The position numbers and the translations under genes are program-made. Positions 34,141 through 41,953 of a DNA stretch of 53,296 nucleotides are shown in pieces. The DNA comes from Haloferax sp. Q22 (lineage in GTDB: Archaea > Halobacteriota > Halobacteria > Halobacteriales > Haloferacaceae): assembly GCF_001482285.1 (NCBI RefSeq), contig NZ_LOEP01000008.1:1-53296 (forward strand), read 5' to 3'. A model generated the notes under the pieces. That model was not told the DNA's origin and did not search any database. It saw nothing but the letters and a program-made list of their open reading frames with translations. Each line of letters starts with the position of its first letter. Positions within the stretch are counted from its first letter, which is position 1.

Positions 34141-34349
34141 GCGACGCTGGAAGTCGCTGGGAGTACAAAATCGTCCGTACGGCCGACGGTGGCCTGTTCA
34201 GCGGCGATACCTCTCCGATGGAGGACGCCCTCAACTCCCTCGGTGGCGACGGCTGGGAACTCGTGGACACGATTTCCGACTCGCGCGGTGCCGGTGCGAA
34301 CAGCGGGCAGACGGCGCTCGTGTTCAAGCGGCCGGCACCCGAGCAATAG
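34137..34349 (+). CDS. DUF4177 family small protein (70 aa)
   Basis: GTG start overlapping the hdrB stop by 4 nt. MSDAGSRWEYKIVRT opens with the WEYK motif typical of DUF4177, followed by MEDALNSLGGDGWELVDTI and TALVFKRPAPE. The fold is a small beta sheet of unknown role. It is clearly the third gene of the thyA-hdrB operon. Confidence 0.88.
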   Translation: MSDAGSRWEYKIVRTADGGLFSGDTSPMEDALNSLGGDGWELVDTISDSRGAGANSGQTALVFKRPAPEQ

Positions 34350-34352
34350 GGA

Positions 34353-34838
34353 CTAGCCTTCCAGCGACCGGAACAGGGGGCCCGACCCGTCGTTCTCGAT
34401 GGTGACCATCTCTTCGCCGTCGAACGTCACCGTGAACGTCTCGTAGTCACTCGGAATCGTCACCACGGCGTCCATCGTCGTCCGCGGCGTGCAGTCTTCG
34501 GATGGCGTCTTCTCGCTGTCTTCGTCCGGACTCGTCGTCAGGTGGTAGACGTACTCGCCGTCTGCGACCATCTCGACGTCTCCGTCGATTCTGACGCTCG
34601 GCGTGTCGTGGGTGAACGTCCGATTGAAGGCGAACGACGTCTGCTCGCCCGCGGGCATTCGGACGGCCCACGACGAGGGGGCAGTCTCGCCATCGACGAG
34701 ACACCCAGTCGCGGCGGCTATCGAAGATGTCGGGGAGGAAGCCGTCTCCGTGGGGGTGACGAAGGTGACACCGACACCACCGAGGACGAGGCCGACGAGA
34801 AAGACGGCGACGAGTGCCGTCATCGAGTAGGAAGGCAT
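34353..34838 (-). CDS. Exported or membrane-anchored hypothetical protein (161 aa)
   Basis: One N-terminal hydrophobic segment (about 5-27, MTALVAVFLVGLVLGGVGVTFV) is followed by a beta-rich extracellular domain with two cysteines (about 46 and 116) that could pair. No lipobox. It converges with the DUF4177 gene, 3 bases apart. I recognise no family. A TATA-like box TTATTATC at 34863-34870 lies 28 nt upstream of the ATG, so it starts its own transcript. Confidence 0.75.
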   Translation of the reverse strand: MPSYSMTALVAVFLVGLVLGGVGVTFVTPTETASSPTSSIAAATGCLVDGETAPSSWAVRMPAGEQTSFAFNRTFTHDTPSVRIDGDVEMVADGEYVYHLTTSPDEDSEKTPSEDCTPRTTMDAVVTIPSDYETFTVTFDGEEMVTIENDGSGPLFRSLEG

Positions 34839-34860
34839 GCGTAATCTGACGCTTCGAAGG

Positions 34861-34870
34861 GAGATAATAA
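34861..34870 (-). promoter_or_regulatory. TATA-like promoter of the exported hypothetical gene
   Basis: TTATTATCTC on the minus strand is centred about 28 nt before the ATG at 34838. It lies 26 nt beyond the sufB stop, upstream on the same strand. Confidence 0.5.
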
Positions 34871-34895
34871 CAGAGTGAGATACGATATCGCGAGC

Positions 34896-36329
34896 CTAGC
34901 CGAGGCTCCCCTCCATCTCCAACTCGACCAGTCGGTTGAGTTCGACGGCGTACTCGATGGGGAGCTCCTTCGTGATGGGTTCTATGAACCCGGAGACGAT
35001 GAGCTGTTTCGCTTCCTCGTCGTCGAGTCCGCGAGACTGGAGATAGAAGATGTCCTCGTCGCCAATCTTCCCCACAGTCGCCTCGTGAGCGACGTCGACT
35101 CTGTTCTCGTGAATCTCTATGTGGGGCATCGTGTCCGAGGTAGACGCGTTGTCGAACATCAGTGCGTCACACTCGACGGAGCACGACGAATCGGTCGACC
35201 CGTGTGCGATACGGACGAGTCCGCGGTAGTTGGTGCGGCCGCCACCGCGAGAGATCGACTTCGAGACGATAGTCGATTTGGTCTCGGGGGCGTTGTGGTA
35301 GACTTTCGCGCCGGTGTCGATGTTTTGCCCTTCGCTGGCGAAGGCGATGGTGATGTGATTGTCGGAGGCACCGCGGCCGTTGAGAATCGTCGCGGGGTAG
35401 AGCATAGTGGCCTTCGAGCCCATCGAGCCCGAAACCCACTCCATGCGGCCGTTCTTACCGACGATAGCGCGTTTGGTGTTCAGATTGTAGGTGTTCTTCG
35501 ACCAGTTCTGGACGGTCGAATACTGCACATGGGCCCCCTCTTTGACGAACACTTCGACGCATCCCGAGTGAAGGTTGAACGCGGAGTACTTCGGTGCCGA
35601 ACAGCCCTCGATGTAGTGGACTTCGGAGTCCTTCTCCGCAACGATGAGGGTGTGTTCGAACTGGCCCATTCCAGCGGAGTTCATGCGGAAGTACGCCTGC
35701 ACCGGCATGTCGACGGTGACGCCCTCGGGGACATAGACGAACGACCCGCCGGACCAGATTGCGCCGTGGAGTGCGGCGAACTTGTTGTCGCTCGGGGGGA
35801 CGCACTTCGTCATGAAGTACTCCTCGACGAGGGCGGGGTGTTCGCGGACAGCTTTGTCCATATCCATGAAGATGACGCCCGACTTCTCCCACTCCTCGTG
35901 CATGTTCTGGTAGACGATTTCGGACTCGTACTGCGCGCCGACACCCGACAGCGCGTTCTTCTCGGCTTCCGGGATACCCAGTTTGTCGAAGGTGTCTTTG
36001 ATATCCTCCGGCAGGTCGTTCCAGTCGCGGACACCGCCGCGGACTTCGACATCGGGGCGGATGTACGGGACGATAGCGTCGACATCAACTTCCGAGAGAT
36101 CAGGTTGCCCGGGCCACCCACTCGGCATCGGCATCTGTTGGAACATCCGCAGGGCTCGAAGGCGACGCTCCAGCATCCACTCCGGTTCCCCCTTGTCCTC
36201 GGAGATGACCCGAACAGTCTCTTCGGTGAGTCCCTTCTCGGCGACGAACGCGGCCTTCTGTTCCTTCTTGAAGTCGAACCGGCTTTGAACGTCGGTTTCC
36301 TCGAAGTGCTGTTCCTCGCGTGAACTCAT
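34896..36329 (-). CDS. sufB: Fe-S cluster assembly scaffold SufB, without SufC or SufD nearby
   Basis: The 477-residue protein carries the SufB core: VGAQYESEIVYQ, TKCVPPSDNKFAALHGAIWSGGSFVYVPEGV, EGCSAPKYSAFNLHSGCVEVF, YSTVQNWSKNTYNLNTKRAIVG, and the C-terminal HEATVGKIGDEDIFYLQSRGL. The Cys in SVECDALMF and the Glu/His of AHEATVGKI match the cluster-building residues. Normally SufB acts with the ATPase SufC and its partner SufD; neither is encoded here. Haloferax has a sufCBD set elsewhere in its genome by my memory, which would make this a second copy. Codon use is somewhat less GC-biased than its neighbours. Confidence 0.93.
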   Translation of the reverse strand: MSSREEQHFEETDVQSRFDFKKEQKAAFVAEKGLTEETVRVISEDKGEPEWMLERRLRALRMFQQMPMPSGWPGQPDLSEVDVDAIVPYIRPDVEVRGGVRDWNDLPEDIKDTFDKLGIPEAEKNALSGVGAQYESEIVYQNMHEEWEKSGVIFMDMDKAVREHPALVEEYFMTKCVPPSDNKFAALHGAIWSGGSFVYVPEGVTVDMPVQAYFRMNSAGMGQFEHTLIVAEKDSEVHYIEGCSAPKYSAFNLHSGCVEVFVKEGAHVQYSTVQNWSKNTYNLNTKRAIVGKNGRMEWVSGSMGSKATMLYPATILNGRGASDNHITIAFASEGQNIDTGAKVYHNAPETKSTIVSKSISRGGGRTNYRGLVRIAHGSTDSSCSVECDALMFDNASTSDTMPHIEIHENRVDVAHEATVGKIGDEDIFYLQSRGLDDEEAKQLIVSGFIEPITKELPIEYAVELNRLVELEMEGSLG

Positions 36330-36702
36330 AACACCTAGAGAGGGGTTCCCAGCTGATATGAGGATGCCCCCTCCCTCAGAAACGAACGACAGTCCGGTCG
36401 TTCGGAGAGACTTCGAACCGGGAGAGTTCCGAAAAAATGGTTCGTTTTCGACACCTCACGGTGTTTTGTTGTAGTCCACACGACGAATTATTAATCAAGC
36501 TGATTCGCATTCAGTCAGTACACATATACTATCAGAATACGATAACATACAGACAAATCTGAAGTTAATTTCAATTAATTTGCATATACCTTCTTAAGAG
36601 TCCGTTGTACGCTGGTTATGCGATAGTACATAGAGCTGGCAGGGCTGTGGTGGCGGAGCATAGTGCCTGGAGTGGAGACACTATCAGAATAAAGATAATA
36701 AA
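36330..36702. other. Non-coding AT-rich region between sufB and the Cys-rich protein gene
   Basis: No gene was seen in these 373 bases. TCATATC on the minus strand (36355-36361) is a TATA-like box 29 nt before the sufB ATG. CGAACGAC-AGTCCG-GTCGTTCG at 36383-36404 is a perfect 8-bp-arm inverted repeat. From about 36480 the DNA becomes very AT-rich. ACTATCAGAATA occurs at 36528-36539 and again at 36680-36691, just before the ATG at 36703. CATATACC near 36583-36590 is a plausible plus-strand TATA box, which would give a leader of some 85 nt. Confidence 0.6.
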
Positions 36703-38730
36703 ATGGACGATACAACGACGAAACCGGACGACACAGAGGAGACAGAGAAGAAACGTGGATACGTACCGATAACGCGGCGGAACGTGATGAAGTCCGTCGG
36801 GGCCGTCGGTGTGCTCGGTGGGTATGCTGGGGCGGCAGGTGCGACGGTACAGGAGTGTAGTTGTGAGGGACTCGGCGGTGGGTCGAGTGCGTGTTTTACC
36901 ACCTCTGACGACGACCCGTGTTCGTACTGTAAAATCGACGACAGCGTTCTCGGGGTGGGTCAGACGTGTACCGTCCCCGGGACGAGCATCACCGTCACGC
37001 GCGAGAGCGAAGACTGCATCAGTTGGACCGACTCGAACGATGAACTAGACGATATCGCGTTGAAGGCAGGTTCAGGAGCAGAGTCCTGTACGCGCTTATC
37101 GGAGTTCGGAACAGACTCGAACGGCCAACTGTGCACACAGGACGGCAAAGACATCAGCCACATCACGGTCAGGTACAACTGTGGCGACGGCAACGGCGGA
37201 CCGACGCCGAGCGGTGAAGTCCTGACGTGTACGACCGCTGAGATAGACGTGACTGGACTACCCGCGAACGAGGACGTCACGCTCACGGTCAGCTTCTACG
37301 ACTGCGACGATTACTCGGAATCGTTCACTGCCGACAGTGACGGAAACGTCACAGCCAGTATCGACCTGACTGCCGTGGGACGCTGTTACTGCACACCCAC
37401 AGAGATGACGCTGACGGACTCGGGTGGAAACGTCCTCGTCGACAGCTTCCAATCCGGCCTCGCAGAAGGGTTCTGCGAACCCACAGTTGAGGCGACCGGT
37501 GACTGCAGTACGGTGACCGCCAGCGTGACCGACAAGATGATAGAGGGTTGCCCGGTCAACGCAACCCTTTACTTCGACGAGTGTTCGCCCACCGATTCGG
37601 TCGAACTCAACGCGAGCAATGGGTGGACCCACGACTTCACCGACTACTGCTACTGCACGCCCGACAGAGTCGTGTTCGAATACGACGCCGGGTCGCAGAC
37701 AGTTGATGTGGATCCGACCGACGAACCGTGTGAGGTCTCCGTGACCGATTCGAGCATCGAATGCTCGAACATCTCCCTCAGCGGAGATGGCGTCGGTAGT
37801 TGCCCAGTCACTATCGTCACCACGTTCGACCAAGACGGATGCGCGGACTACGAGACGACTGTCAACGCAAGCGGCGGCAAGTGGTCCGCCAGTATCGACT
37901 TGTCTGACGTTGGACGGTGCTACTGCACGCCAACGAAAGTCGACGTGTACGAGGGTGACTCGGCCAGTGGCGAGCCAGTTGACACGGTCTACCCGTCCTC
38001 TGAACTCGACTGCGAACCGACCTTCGAGGAGACGTTCTACTGTGACGCAGTGGACGTCAGCGGTACCGGCCTCGTCGAAGGCTGTGACGTCACGGCGACA
38101 GTGTACACGAAAAAGGACACCGAAGGGCACGACTTCGACGTGACCTGCGATGGTGAATACACCGCCACGCTGTCGGCGAGCAGTCCCTCGGCGACCGTCG
38201 ACCTCTCAGGTCTGCCATGTGGCTGTGAGCCAGATTACGTCGAGTACTCCTACGATGGAGTCGTCTTCGACGACGAGACGGAGTCCGCAGGTCCGCTCAA
38301 CTGCATCTGTGACGACTTCACGGACGTCTGCAAGTTCGAGTGGTACGACGACGATCGGAACGAGATACTGTTCGATACGTGGCTCGACTGTCACGGCGGA
38401 CAGGTCAGGTTCACCAACCCGACCTACAAGGACGGTGACGAACTCGTCTGCTTCGACTTCGAATCGACCTTCCCGGTCTTCGAAGTGTTCGTGAAGGGTG
38501 GTGGCGGCAAAGACGCTGGCAACACCTACACGTGGCCGTGCGGAACGATGGATTCCAGCACTGCGCCGTCGAAGATTACGGACGCGAACGGTAACGACAT
38601 CACCGATGAGTGGGACGGCCAACTCTGCGCGAACGAGCACCCGAAGAACGGCCGGCAGACGGCGGTCAGTCACGTGACCTTCCGCGTCTGCGTGGACGAA
38701 ACCCTCGATAACAAACCCTCGAACGGATAG
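36703..38730 (+). CDS. Tat-exported protein with 40 cysteines and four repeats, unknown function
   Basis: The 675-residue protein begins with a Lys/Glu/Asp-rich stretch, then a twin-arginine signal ITRRNVMKSVGAVGVLGG ending near AGA (residue 47); no lipobox. It has 40 Cys, all after the signal. Residues 173-262, 263-345, 349-440 and 442-533 are four repeats, each starting with a Cys-centred beta strand and ending in a CYCTP-type pair (Cys228/230, 316/318, 406/408, 506/508). Repeats 2-4 each have six Cys; repeat 1 lacks one. Segments at 118-160 and 594-663 both show a V/L-K-A/G-G start and end SH[IV]T[VF]R, a motif I remember from secreted bacterial surface proteins. Probably a disulfide-stabilised surface or released protein. 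No anchor or sorting signal is visible. Confidence 0.85.
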   Translation: MDDTTTKPDDTEETEKKRGYVPITRRNVMKSVGAVGVLGGYAGAAGATVQECSCEGLGGGSSACFTTSDDDPCSYCKIDDSVLGVGQTCTVPGTSITVTRESEDCISWTDSNDELDDIALKAGSGAESCTRLSEFGTDSNGQLCTQDGKDISHITVRYNCGDGNGGPTPSGEVLTCTTAEIDVTGLPANEDVTLTVSFYDCDDYSESFTADSDGNVTASIDLTAVGRCYCTPTEMTLTDSGGNVLVDSFQSGLAEGFCEPTVEATGDCSTVTASVTDKMIEGCPVNATLYFDECSPTDSVELNASNGWTHDFTDYCYCTPDRVVFEYDAGSQTVDVDPTDEPCEVSVTDSSIECSNISLSGDGVGSCPVTIVTTFDQDGCADYETTVNASGGKWSASIDLSDVGRCYCTPTKVDVYEGDSASGEPVDTVYPSSELDCEPTFEETFYCDAVDVSGTGLVEGCDVTATVYTKKDTEGHDFDVTCDGEYTATLSASSPSATVDLSGLPCGCEPDYVEYSYDGVVFDDETESAGPLNCICDDFTDVCKFEWYDDDRNEILFDTWLDCHGGQVRFTNPTYKDGDELVCFDFESTFPVFEVFVKGGGGKDAGNTYTWPCGTMDSSTAPSKITDANGNDITDEWDGQLCANEHPKNGRQTAVSHVTFRVCVDETLDNKPSNG

Positions 38731-38826
38731 TCGAGTGAACCACGGCGAGAACACGACGAAGTGTCTCTCGCACGCAACTTTATCGGTCTCAACGTCGAAC
38801 TAGAGACGAATCCAACAATTGACAAT

Positions 38827-39651
38827 ATGACACGTTTTGCAATCGTAGACAGATTCCGCCAGCCCGAATACACCGGTGAGAATCGATGCACGCCATGTAC
38901 CATCGTCAACGTGGCCATTGCGGCCGTCGCGAGCCTCGTGCTTGGCCTCGTGTGGGCCCCGCTTGTGGTGGTTTCGTTCGCCCTCTTCGTGGCCGTCATC
39001 TACACCCGTGGCTACCTCGTGCCGGGGACGCCGACACTCACGAAGACGTACTTCCCCGACCGAGTCCTCCGGTGGTTCGACAAGGAACCCGAACCCGCCT
39101 TCGCCGTCGCCGTCGACGAGGACACCGACCTCGACGTCGAAGCGGTGTTGCAAGACACCGGCGCACTCGAACCATGCGAAGACATCGAAGACCTGTGTCT
39201 GACGCCGGCGTTCGAGAGTGTGTGGAGCGACGAACTCGAGCGCACAGACGAGTCGGCGGTGCGGAACCAACTGGCCTCGATAATCGGTGTGGACCAATCG
39301 CGCATCTCGACGGCGCAAGCCGGCGAGTGGTTCGTCGCCAGACTCGATGGTGACCAAATCGGCAGGTGGGAGTCACAGGCGGCACTAGCCGCGGATATGG
39401 CCGCCGACGTGGTTCTCGCGGACCGAGTCGCCGACTGGGAGGCACTCAGCCCCGATTCCCGGAGTGCACTCGCCAGAGGTCTCCGAATCTACCTCGAACA
39501 GTGCCCCGACTGTGGCGGGGCGGTCGCGTTCGGGAAAGAGACGCGTTCGTCCTGCTGTCGGTCGTGGGAGGTGGTCGTCACTCGCTGTGACGACTGCGAC
39601 ACGAAACTCTTCGAAATCGAATCGGCACAACTCGAACAAGACGCCGCATAG
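38827..39651 (+). CDS. Membrane protein with CxxC and zinc ribbon (paralogue B)
   Basis: 274 residues. PEYTGENRCTPCTIVN places Cys21-x2-Cys24 immediately before the first of two hydrophobic segments (about 25-44 and 46-62). The rest is cytoplasmic or surface-facing, with Cys117 and Cys124, GVDQSRISTAQAGEWFVARLDGDQIGRWES, and a C-terminal ribbon with Cys226/229, Cys243/244 and Cys254/257. It repeats the layout of the gene at 25955-26785. The CxxC beside a membrane helix recalls thiol redox proteins, but no known fold is recognised. It follows the Cys-rich protein gene by 96 nt on the same strand. ATG 38827 was preferred to a GTG 66 nt upstream. Confidence 0.8.
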   Translation: MTRFAIVDRFRQPEYTGENRCTPCTIVNVAIAAVASLVLGLVWAPLVVVSFALFVAVIYTRGYLVPGTPTLTKTYFPDRVLRWFDKEPEPAFAVAVDEDTDLDVEAVLQDTGALEPCEDIEDLCLTPAFESVWSDELERTDESAVRNQLASIIGVDQSRISTAQAGEWFVARLDGDQIGRWESQAALAADMAADVVLADRVADWEALSPDSRSALARGLRIYLEQCPDCGGAVAFGKETRSSCCRSWEVVVTRCDDCDTKLFEIESAQLEQDAA

Positions 39652-39685
39652 GAGCTGACGGGCAGTCCTAGCGGTCGTCTCCCCC

Positions 39686-41785
39686 TCAGGAACTGACGTG
39701 TTCTGACCGTACTGCGCTCCGGCCACTGGCGTCGGTGACCGTCAGTTGGACCTCGAAGGTAGTCGACCCGACTTTCTTGAGTTTGAACGAATCCGACCCA
39801 CTCGCCCTGTCGCCACCGACAGACGACTGTGCCGAATCGGCCACGGACCCGCTACTATCGAGTACGTCCACGACGACGGTCGCGAGGTCACCGTCGACGT
39901 CCGCGACGGTCCAGTCCGCTGTCATCTCCGCGTGTGGGTCGCGCTTGCCCGCTTCACTCACAGCGTACGATTCGACCGTCGGGGGCGATAGCTCCGAAGC
40001 GGCGGCATCGGTCGTTAACGTGGCCGTACTACCGGTGTCAGTATCACCATCGCTCGCGGTGGCGACTGCCCGGTACTCGTAGGTGACACCGCTTTCGAGG
40101 CCGCTCAGCGATTCGCTGAACGTTCCCGTCGACGAAACCGTCTGGGTCGCAGTCGTCGACCACGACGTGGTGTCCTGTTTCCGGTAGTCGAAGGCAACGT
40201 CCGCGGAACTCGCGCCGCCGAGGTCAGAGACCGTTCCGTCGAGTGTGGCCGCCGTCTCGGTGACGTTCGTGGCCGAATCTGTCGACACGACGACGCTCGG
40301 GTCGGTAGTCGTCTCGAGCGTCACAGTAGAACCGGTGTCGGTGTCGCCGTCGCTCGCGGTGGCGGTTGCCCGGTACTCGTAGGTCGTTCCGCTTTCGAGA
40401 CCACTCAGCGTCGCTGTGAAACTTCCCGTCGAGGAAACCGTCTGGGTCGCAGTCGTCGACCACGACGTGGTGCCCTGTTTCCGGTGGTCGAAGGCAACGT
40501 CCGCGGAACTCGCGCCGCCGAGGTCGGTCAGCGTTCCGCCGAGCGTCGCCGCCGCCTCGGTGATATCAGTCGCCGTGTCCGTCGAGACGACGACTGCCGT
40601 GTCGGTGGTGTCGCTCGCTCCGACTGCCGCTTCCACGTCGAGGAGTCCGTACCCTTGATCTGAACTCGAGAGGCCGAGGTCCTCTGCCGTCTCCTGAAGT
40701 CGCGTCCGTGCCTCGGTGTTGGTGTATCCCTTCGCCATCAGCTGGCCCCCCGCGGCGGCGACGTGCGGACACGCCATCGAGGTGCCGGAGTAGTACTGGT
40801 AGCCGTCGACGATGGTCGAGTAGATGTAGGTCCCCGGTGCGGTGAGTTCGACTTCCGGCCCAGTAGAGGAAAACGAGGACAGGTCGTCGTCCATGCCGAC
40901 TGCGCTCACTGCAATCACCGTCGAGTAGGCGGCGGGATACTCCACACAGTCGGTACAGGGGCCGTCGTTGCCCGTCGCGGCGACGAGGAGGACGCCGTTG
41001 TCGTACGCGTACTGGCAGGCGTCCCGGAGGGTGCTGGACGATGACGCCGCGCCGAAACTCATGCTGGCGACGTCGTACCCGCGTTCGACGACCCACGAGA
41101 GACCGTCTGCGACGCCGGACCACGTCCCAGACCCGTACTCTCCGAGCACCTTGACGGCGTGTAACGTTGCCTCGGTGGCGACGCCGATGGTACCGTCGGT
41201 GTTGTCGACGGCACCGACGATACCCGCACAGTGGGTTCCGTGGTCGTTGTCGTCGCCCCAGGCGGCCGAACAACCGGAATCGCACGTTTCGGCCGCGTAT
41301 CCGTCACCGAGGTTCGCCTGCAGATCCGGGTGGTCGGCGTCGATACCGGTGTCGAGGATTGCGACGTGCGAACCGGAACCGGTTTCGCCCGCGCTGTGGG
41401 CGACCTCAGCGTCGACCCGGTCGATACCCCACGGGAGTTCTTCAGCGACCGCTTCCACGCGGCCGTCCGGTTCGACGTATCGGACGTCGGGGTGCGATTG
41501 GAGGGCGTCCAGTGCTTCCTGTGGGAAACGCCCTGCGACGGCGAATCCAATATCACCGAAATCTAACTCTCGGTCCACCGCGTTCGCGCGCGCTTTCGCA
41601 GCTCGAACTCCCTCCTTCGAGCGAGTACCGACGATGTATCGCCCGGGAGGGTTGCGTCCTGTTGCTTCACCCGCGAGACCAATAGTCGCAAATCCTGTCC
41701 CAACCGTTCGGAGAAGATTTCGACGGGAGACATTCAGATCATCGAGACGTTCGTTCACGTACGAACGAGTGGAAGACAGATACAT
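39686..41785 (-). CDS. Tat-exported subtilisin-like serine protease with two fibronectin-III-like repeats (halolysin type)
   Basis: The 699-residue precursor has a twin-arginine signal (SRRNLLRTVGTGFATIGLAG), an inhibitor-like propeptide (about 45-115), and a peptidase S8 domain with Asp145 (ILDTGIDADHPDL), His182 (NDHGTHCAG), oxyanion Asn273 and Ser336 (SGTSMACPHVAA). Cysteines at 168/172 and 277/280 may form disulfides. Residues 397-496 and 497-596 are two nearly identical fibronectin-III-like modules of exactly 100 residues, followed by a third beta-rich domain with the distal TWTVADVDGDLATVVVDVLD. It resembles halolysins, which usually lack such FnIII repeats. It is convergent with paralogue B, 34 nt apart. 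Confidence 0.93.
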   Translation of the reverse strand: MYLSSTRSYVNERLDDLNVSRRNLLRTVGTGFATIGLAGEATGRNPPGRYIVGTRSKEGVRAAKARANAVDRELDFGDIGFAVAGRFPQEALDALQSHPDVRYVEPDGRVEAVAEELPWGIDRVDAEVAHSAGETGSGSHVAILDTGIDADHPDLQANLGDGYAAETCDSGCSAAWGDDNDHGTHCAGIVGAVDNTDGTIGVATEATLHAVKVLGEYGSGTWSGVADGLSWVVERGYDVASMSFGAASSSSTLRDACQYAYDNGVLLVAATGNDGPCTDCVEYPAAYSTVIAVSAVGMDDDLSSFSSTGPEVELTAPGTYIYSTIVDGYQYYSGTSMACPHVAAAGGQLMAKGYTNTEARTRLQETAEDLGLSSSDQGYGLLDVEAAVGASDTTDTAVVVSTDTATDITEAAATLGGTLTDLGGASSADVAFDHRKQGTTSWSTTATQTVSSTGSFTATLSGLESGTTYEYRATATASDGDTDTGSTVTLETTTDPSVVVSTDSATNVTETAATLDGTVSDLGGASSADVAFDYRKQDTTSWSTTATQTVSSTGTFSESLSGLESGVTYEYRAVATASDGDTDTGSTATLTTDAAASELSPPTVESYAVSEAGKRDPHAEMTADWTVADVDGDLATVVVDVLDSSGSVADSAQSSVGGDRASGSDSFKLKKVGSTTFEVQLTVTDASGRSAVRSEHVSS
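39998..40597 (-). repeat. Tandem 300-bp repeat encoding the two FnIII-like modules
   Basis: Two 300-bp units, 40298-40597 and 39998-40297, encode modules of equal length (VVVSTD at residues 397 and 497). They are nearly identical over long blocks, which implies a recent duplication or gene conversion. Confidence 0.85.
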
Positions 41786-41953
41786 AAATTTCTCTGAACT
41801 TGTATTTAGAATTAATTTAAATATTTCTTATATATTCTAGCACATTCTAGTGAATACTAGTATGGTGGTGAATGAATTAATCTCTGCGACAGGTCGGCCG
41901 TCGTCCGGGAATCCCACCAAGAATATTTACTTCGTTGATATGAATTGTTCTGT
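41786..41953. promoter_or_regulatory. AT-rich control region of the protease with phased repeats
   Basis: ATTCTAG at 41834-41840 and 41844-41850 and ATACTAG at 41854-41860 form three heptamers spaced exactly 10 bp apart, one DNA turn. On the minus strand TTAAATTAAT-like sequence near 41808-41818 would be the protease TATA box, leaving the repeats 20-45 bp further upstream, where an activator would bind. On the plus strand ATATTTAC at 41923-41930 is 27 nt before the next gene. Confidence 0.55.

Follow-up and report, generated by a model that had tools for sequence, protein, structure and literature searches.

Background

Extracellular proteins composed of immunoglobulin-like (Ig) repeats are often adhesive or structural. 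In the fibronectin type III (FN3) form of this fold, one pole of the domain carries the AB, CC' and EF loops, and the BC loop is found at the opposite pole, beside the preceding linker. Among haloarchaea, the precursors of halocin C8 are exported through the twin-arginine (Tat) pathway (PMC11509114). Our sequence counts give these precursors about 10 cysteines.

The protein described here touches on both systems. It is encoded in the window, which is the whole 53,296-nucleotide stretch of Haloferax sp. Q22 that was analysed, at positions 36703..38730 of the forward strand (ATG start, stop codon included), and comprises 675 residues with 40 cysteines. Its likeness to the bacterial Ig-like domain group 3 (Pfam Big_3_5) and fibronectin type III families lies in a predicted tandem beta-sandwich, with sequence matches in its siblings and fold matches for the 675-residue protein, while its extra loop cysteines set it apart from them. 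With the halocin C8 precursors it shares a cysteine-rich, Tat-exported haloarchaeal character, but the domains are different, no common sequence was found and the two are not generally linked in genomes. The reading that we favour, with somewhat better than even confidence, is that of a disulfide-rigidified, Tat-exported extracellular Ig-repeat protein that is a cysteine-enriched member of an unnamed haloarchaeal family.

Export signal and cysteine content

The gene opens with a twin-arginine signal region (36703..36846, forward strand, residues 1-48; ITRRNVMKSVGAVGVLGG) carrying the Tat-type signal PITRRNVMKSVGAVGVLGGYAGAAGA, to which the RR signals of relatives align. The first cysteine is residue 52, and the translated reading frame agrees with the first-pass annotation in placing all 40 cysteines C-terminal to the signal. 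No lipobox was seen by eye in the signal region; Tat would be expected to export the protein, non-lipidated, to the cell exterior. Cysteine makes up 5.9% of the protein, against a median of 0.8% for 959 gene calls in the fetched haloarchaeal loci and 1.0% for the 148 Tat-like calls among them, all made heuristically by our own method. The protein and its orthologue in a congener (G004) have the two highest cysteine fractions of these 148, in keeping with the earlier claim that such a content is exceptional for a haloarchaeal exported protein.

Repeat architecture and predicted fold

Between two cysteine-bearing end domains lie four alignable repeats of about 90 residues each, as had been proposed from the letters alone. 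The N-terminal domain (36847..37200, forward strand, residues 49-166) contains 10 cysteines, and its relatives show the pattern ...LKAG..C...FC...DISNATFY.C. It is followed on the same strand by R1 (37204..37473, residues 168-257; Cys 176, 201, 228 and 230), R2 (37474..37728, residues 258-342; Cys 258, 268, 283, 294, 316 and 318), R3 (37729..38010, residues 343-436; Cys 343, 354, 367, 380, 406 and 408) and R4 (38011..38301, residues 437-533; Cys 437, 447, 461, 482, 506 and 508). The six cysteines ascribed to each of repeats 2-4 are therefore present. When R1-R4 were aligned with the two repeats of the G004 orthologue, four cysteine columns were invariant, and the units were 30-40% identical to R2. 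The CYCTP-type ending attributed to all four repeats holds for R1 (residues 228-232), R2 (316-320) and R3 (406-410); R4 instead has CGCEP.

The C-terminal domain (38302..38727, forward strand, residues 534-675) has 8 cysteines and reads ...FPVFEVFVKGGGG...AVSHVTFRVC. The motifs SHITVR (residues 152-157) and SHVTFR (656-661) had been suggested as possible marks of a single flanking domain at both ends. In favour of this idea, the two end segments have a K[AG]G...SH[IV]T pattern in common, and relatives of each also finish with a similar strand, but hhalign of the two short alignments returned a probability of 0.4%. Stretches similar to the C-terminal domain were found at five other loci (L006, L011, L015, L155 and L156), and in siblings L200-L206 and L209 the C-terminal stretch resembles, in a weak alignment, that of the 675-residue protein.

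AlphaFold models were built for residues 46-345 (pLDDT 76.7) and residues 343-675 (pLDDT 80.2), using alignments of 19 and 24 rows. Almost all of the structure is predicted as beta, and block values lie at about 87-95 across R3. The best Foldseek matches of these predicted models were solved fibronectin-III tandems (E 2e-6 and 4e-6); since whole-model TM-scores were low, at about 0.2-0.3, the fold can be matched for individual domains at most. Of the 19 aligned family members, 10 matched Pfam Big_3_5 (best 4.5e-7); the bit scores available, 30.3 and 25.7 in siblings, fall short of the curated cut-off of 35.5, and Pfam gave no Big_3_5 match in the 675-residue protein itself. The fold is predicted to be a chain of tandem Ig/FN3-like beta-sandwich domains.

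A scattered haloarchaeal family

Searches of Pfam, NCBIfam and PHROGs with the 675-residue protein returned no named family above cut-off, sequence searches of solved structures gave no credible match, and plasmid and phage searches gave none; weak matches to FlgF/FlgE were judged to be chance. Among 59 relatives a clear orthologue was present in one, the congener G004, where a 492-residue protein with 30 cysteines and two repeats is encoded at the equivalent position, with a sufB copy on one side and the same downstream gene on the other. Other matches among the 59 spanned some 60 residues at the end bearing the signal, and contig scans with the two-sequence alignment confirmed nothing. A profile of the repeat retrieved four haloarchaeal proteins that combine a Tat signal and two-cysteine repeats with the same N-terminal domain. 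A second profile made from those four and the two orthologues recovered more members, about 20 of which carried the N-terminal motif after extraction. The family, which the first-pass annotation did not recognise, can therefore be found by profile search, with some 20 Tat-signal relatives within the order.

Members found by contig scan come from Natronococcus, Natrialba, Natronobiforma, Haladaptatus, Halocatena, Halogranum, Halalkalicoccus, Natrinema and Halobiforma. The sole member looked up in an annotated record, WP_227777636.1 from Haladaptatus pallidirubidus, is annotated as a hypothetical protein. The family plan consists of a Tat signal, an N-terminal ...LKAG...ISNATFY.C domain, two or three repeats and, in some members, a C-terminal domain. 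Weaker relatives include the SipW-like proteins L210 and L211; at L210:6053-10609, two tandem SipW-like Tat proteins contain the family N-terminal domain, and the first of them also matches Laminin_B. In three genomes of one genus (L191, L192 and L194), a radical SAM-like gene lies directly downstream of the family member.

The 675-residue protein shares with its siblings (L191-L207) the Tat signal, the N-terminal cysteine domain with its conserved cysteines, KAG and IS[NH].T, and tandem Ig-like repeats that can be aligned family-wide, the C-terminal domain being shared with some of them. KAG, IS and several N-domain cysteine columns are invariant across the aligned family. It differs in sequence, being 22-27% identical to the siblings over the aligned part; many siblings also have a Lys- or His-rich tail. 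The clearest difference concerns the repeats: 33 of 35 sibling units contain two cysteines and the other two contain three, whereas R1 has four and R2-R4 have six each, so that the cysteine content of the repeat domains is about three times that of the relatives. Because the family was delimited in this analysis, with two cysteines per unit a usual trait of the siblings and not a criterion fixed beforehand, the 675-residue protein is treated as a variant within it despite the extra cysteines, and not as an outsider. Judged by its sequence, it is a cysteine-enriched member of a scattered, unnamed family of putatively exported haloarchaeal proteins. The N-terminal domain bears cysteines in the relatives too; cysteine-rich Tat export is therefore not unique to this protein.

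Proposed cysteine pairing and disulfide formation

In the predicted strands of R3, Cys 354 falls between A and B, Cys 367 just before C, Cys 380 between C and C', and Cys 406 and 408 before F. Across the six units compared, the five that are preceded by a linker cysteine (R2, R3, R4 and both orthologue repeats) all have a cysteine in the BC loop. R1 is the sole unit whose preceding linker is without cysteine, and it is likewise without a BC-loop cysteine. This co-occurrence, which rests on one unit devoid of both, suggests that the linker cysteine pairs with the BC loop of the following domain, with candidate disulfides at 258-283, 343-367 and 437-461. Taken together, the cysteine pattern and the strand order suggest staples between loops within each domain and a further staple joining each linker to the domain that follows. 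In the siblings, the two cysteines of a unit could pair with each other, which would compete for the linker cysteine.

An alternative is that the CxC pairs and the other cysteines hold zinc, copper or another metal in place of disulfides, making this a secreted metal-binding or sequestering protein. CxC in every repeat, the cysteine-rich end domains and CxxC motifs in the downstream gene product would suit such a role. We consider it improbable, given that cysteine totals are even in both orthologues (40 and 30), that the extra cysteines map to loops of the predicted Ig fold, a frequent site of disulfides, and that the genome encodes DsbA-like proteins (PF13462) and a member of the DsbB family. 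One of the DsbA-like proteins shows, by eye, a lipobox and a CPHC motif; VKOR was not found in the genome. With DsbA- and DsbB-type genes present, no unusual disulfide chemistry is needed, contrary to what the first-pass annotation had supposed for a Tat substrate.

The favoured disulfide-bonded protein would have an N-terminal cysteine domain and a C-terminal beta domain, with the four Ig/FN3-like repeats forming a rod between them. Four loop cysteines at one pole of each repeat (in AB, in CC' and in the CxC before strand F) would form two disulfides, and pairing of each linker cysteine with the BC loop of the following repeat would staple neighbours into a stiff rod. Disulfide state, pairing and stiffness are all deduced here from pattern and model, and the function outside the cell is probably adhesive, structural or ligand-binding. 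A stronger version, in which this is an extracellular archaeal rod with each Ig-like domain covalently stapled to the preceding linker and exported folded and oxidised via Tat, strikes us as rather unlikely. A serial inter-domain disulfide design of this kind is not known to have been described for archaeal surface proteins.

Genomic context

The gene lies in a candidate imported segment (34335..41950) together with a second sufB-like gene, the downstream gene and a halolysin-like protease gene. The left border falls between 34334 and 34810 and the right border at about 41930-41952, giving a length of about 7.1-7.6 kb, and GC content is 54-65% inside against 63-71% outside. Both flanks align at about 87-97% with five close relatives (G001, G003, G006, G007 and G014). 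At this locus those five are without the sufB copy, the 675-residue protein gene and the halolysin-like gene, and their allele of the downstream gene is divergent. In a psmA tree this genome groups with these five (100/100), whereas in the downstream-gene tree it groups with G004, G005, G010 and G013 (100/100) on a long branch. Because it is missing from the five close relatives and its tree is discordant with the flank, the segment was probably imported, most simply from a G004-like congener.

The second sufB-like gene (34896-36329) encodes a protein 85% identical to that of the other copy (G000:C26:105716-107140); a weaker SufB/D-like match comes after that other copy. The halolysin-like subtilase (39686-41785, reverse strand) has a Tat signal and FN3-like stretches, and occurs at this locus in one of ten genomes compared, namely this one.

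Probable import and low GC, along with some phage tail proteins among the Foldseek matches, could be read as signs of a tail-fibre-like structural protein of a virus or mobile element. We give this very little credence: phage and viral collections and PHROGs returned no match, the protein has a Tat signal, a sufB copy and a protease are encoded in the segment as well, and Ig-like folds recur everywhere.

The downstream gene (38761..39651, forward strand) begins 31 bp from the 675-residue protein gene and also adjoins the orthologue in G004; its true start may be a later ATG. Its product, a probable membrane protein, has CTPCT ahead of the first hydrophobic stretch and a C-terminal CPDCGG...C..C. 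The family occurs in 51 of the 59 relatives, often in multiple copies and in varied surroundings. A general link to cysteine-rich Tat proteins was dropped: in the DNA flanking 90 family members, near regions totalling 442 kb had 15 cysteine-rich Tat-like open reading frames and far regions totalling 556 kb had 13, some of these frames looking spurious. Elsewhere in this genome (L126:4837-5973, reverse strand), a Tat-signal protein with a very cysteine-rich hydrophobic C-terminus is divergent from another copy of the family.

In a congener (L139:6846-7880, reverse strand), a halocin C8-like precursor lies 10 bp upstream of a downstream-gene family copy. That neighbourhood, and the Tat export and cysteine richness common to both proteins, would fit a secreted precursor of a halocin C8-type antimicrobial. 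We find this scarcely credible for the 675-residue protein, whose C-terminal sequence contains no hydrophobic 10-cysteine peptide of the type that marks the halocin C8 family and whose parts are Ig-like domains common to another family. Moreover, no member of the downstream-gene family lies within about 5 kb of any of 13 further halocin C8-like loci, and a HalC8-like query against this genome had no match listed at 1e-6.

Implications

This analysis delimits an unannotated haloarchaeal exported family. Within it, relatives with two cysteines per unit and a lineage with up to six offer a system in which cysteine gain by a repeat domain can be tested. Should the disulfides be in place before export, the protein would also be informative about the handling of oxidised proteins by haloarchaeal Tat.
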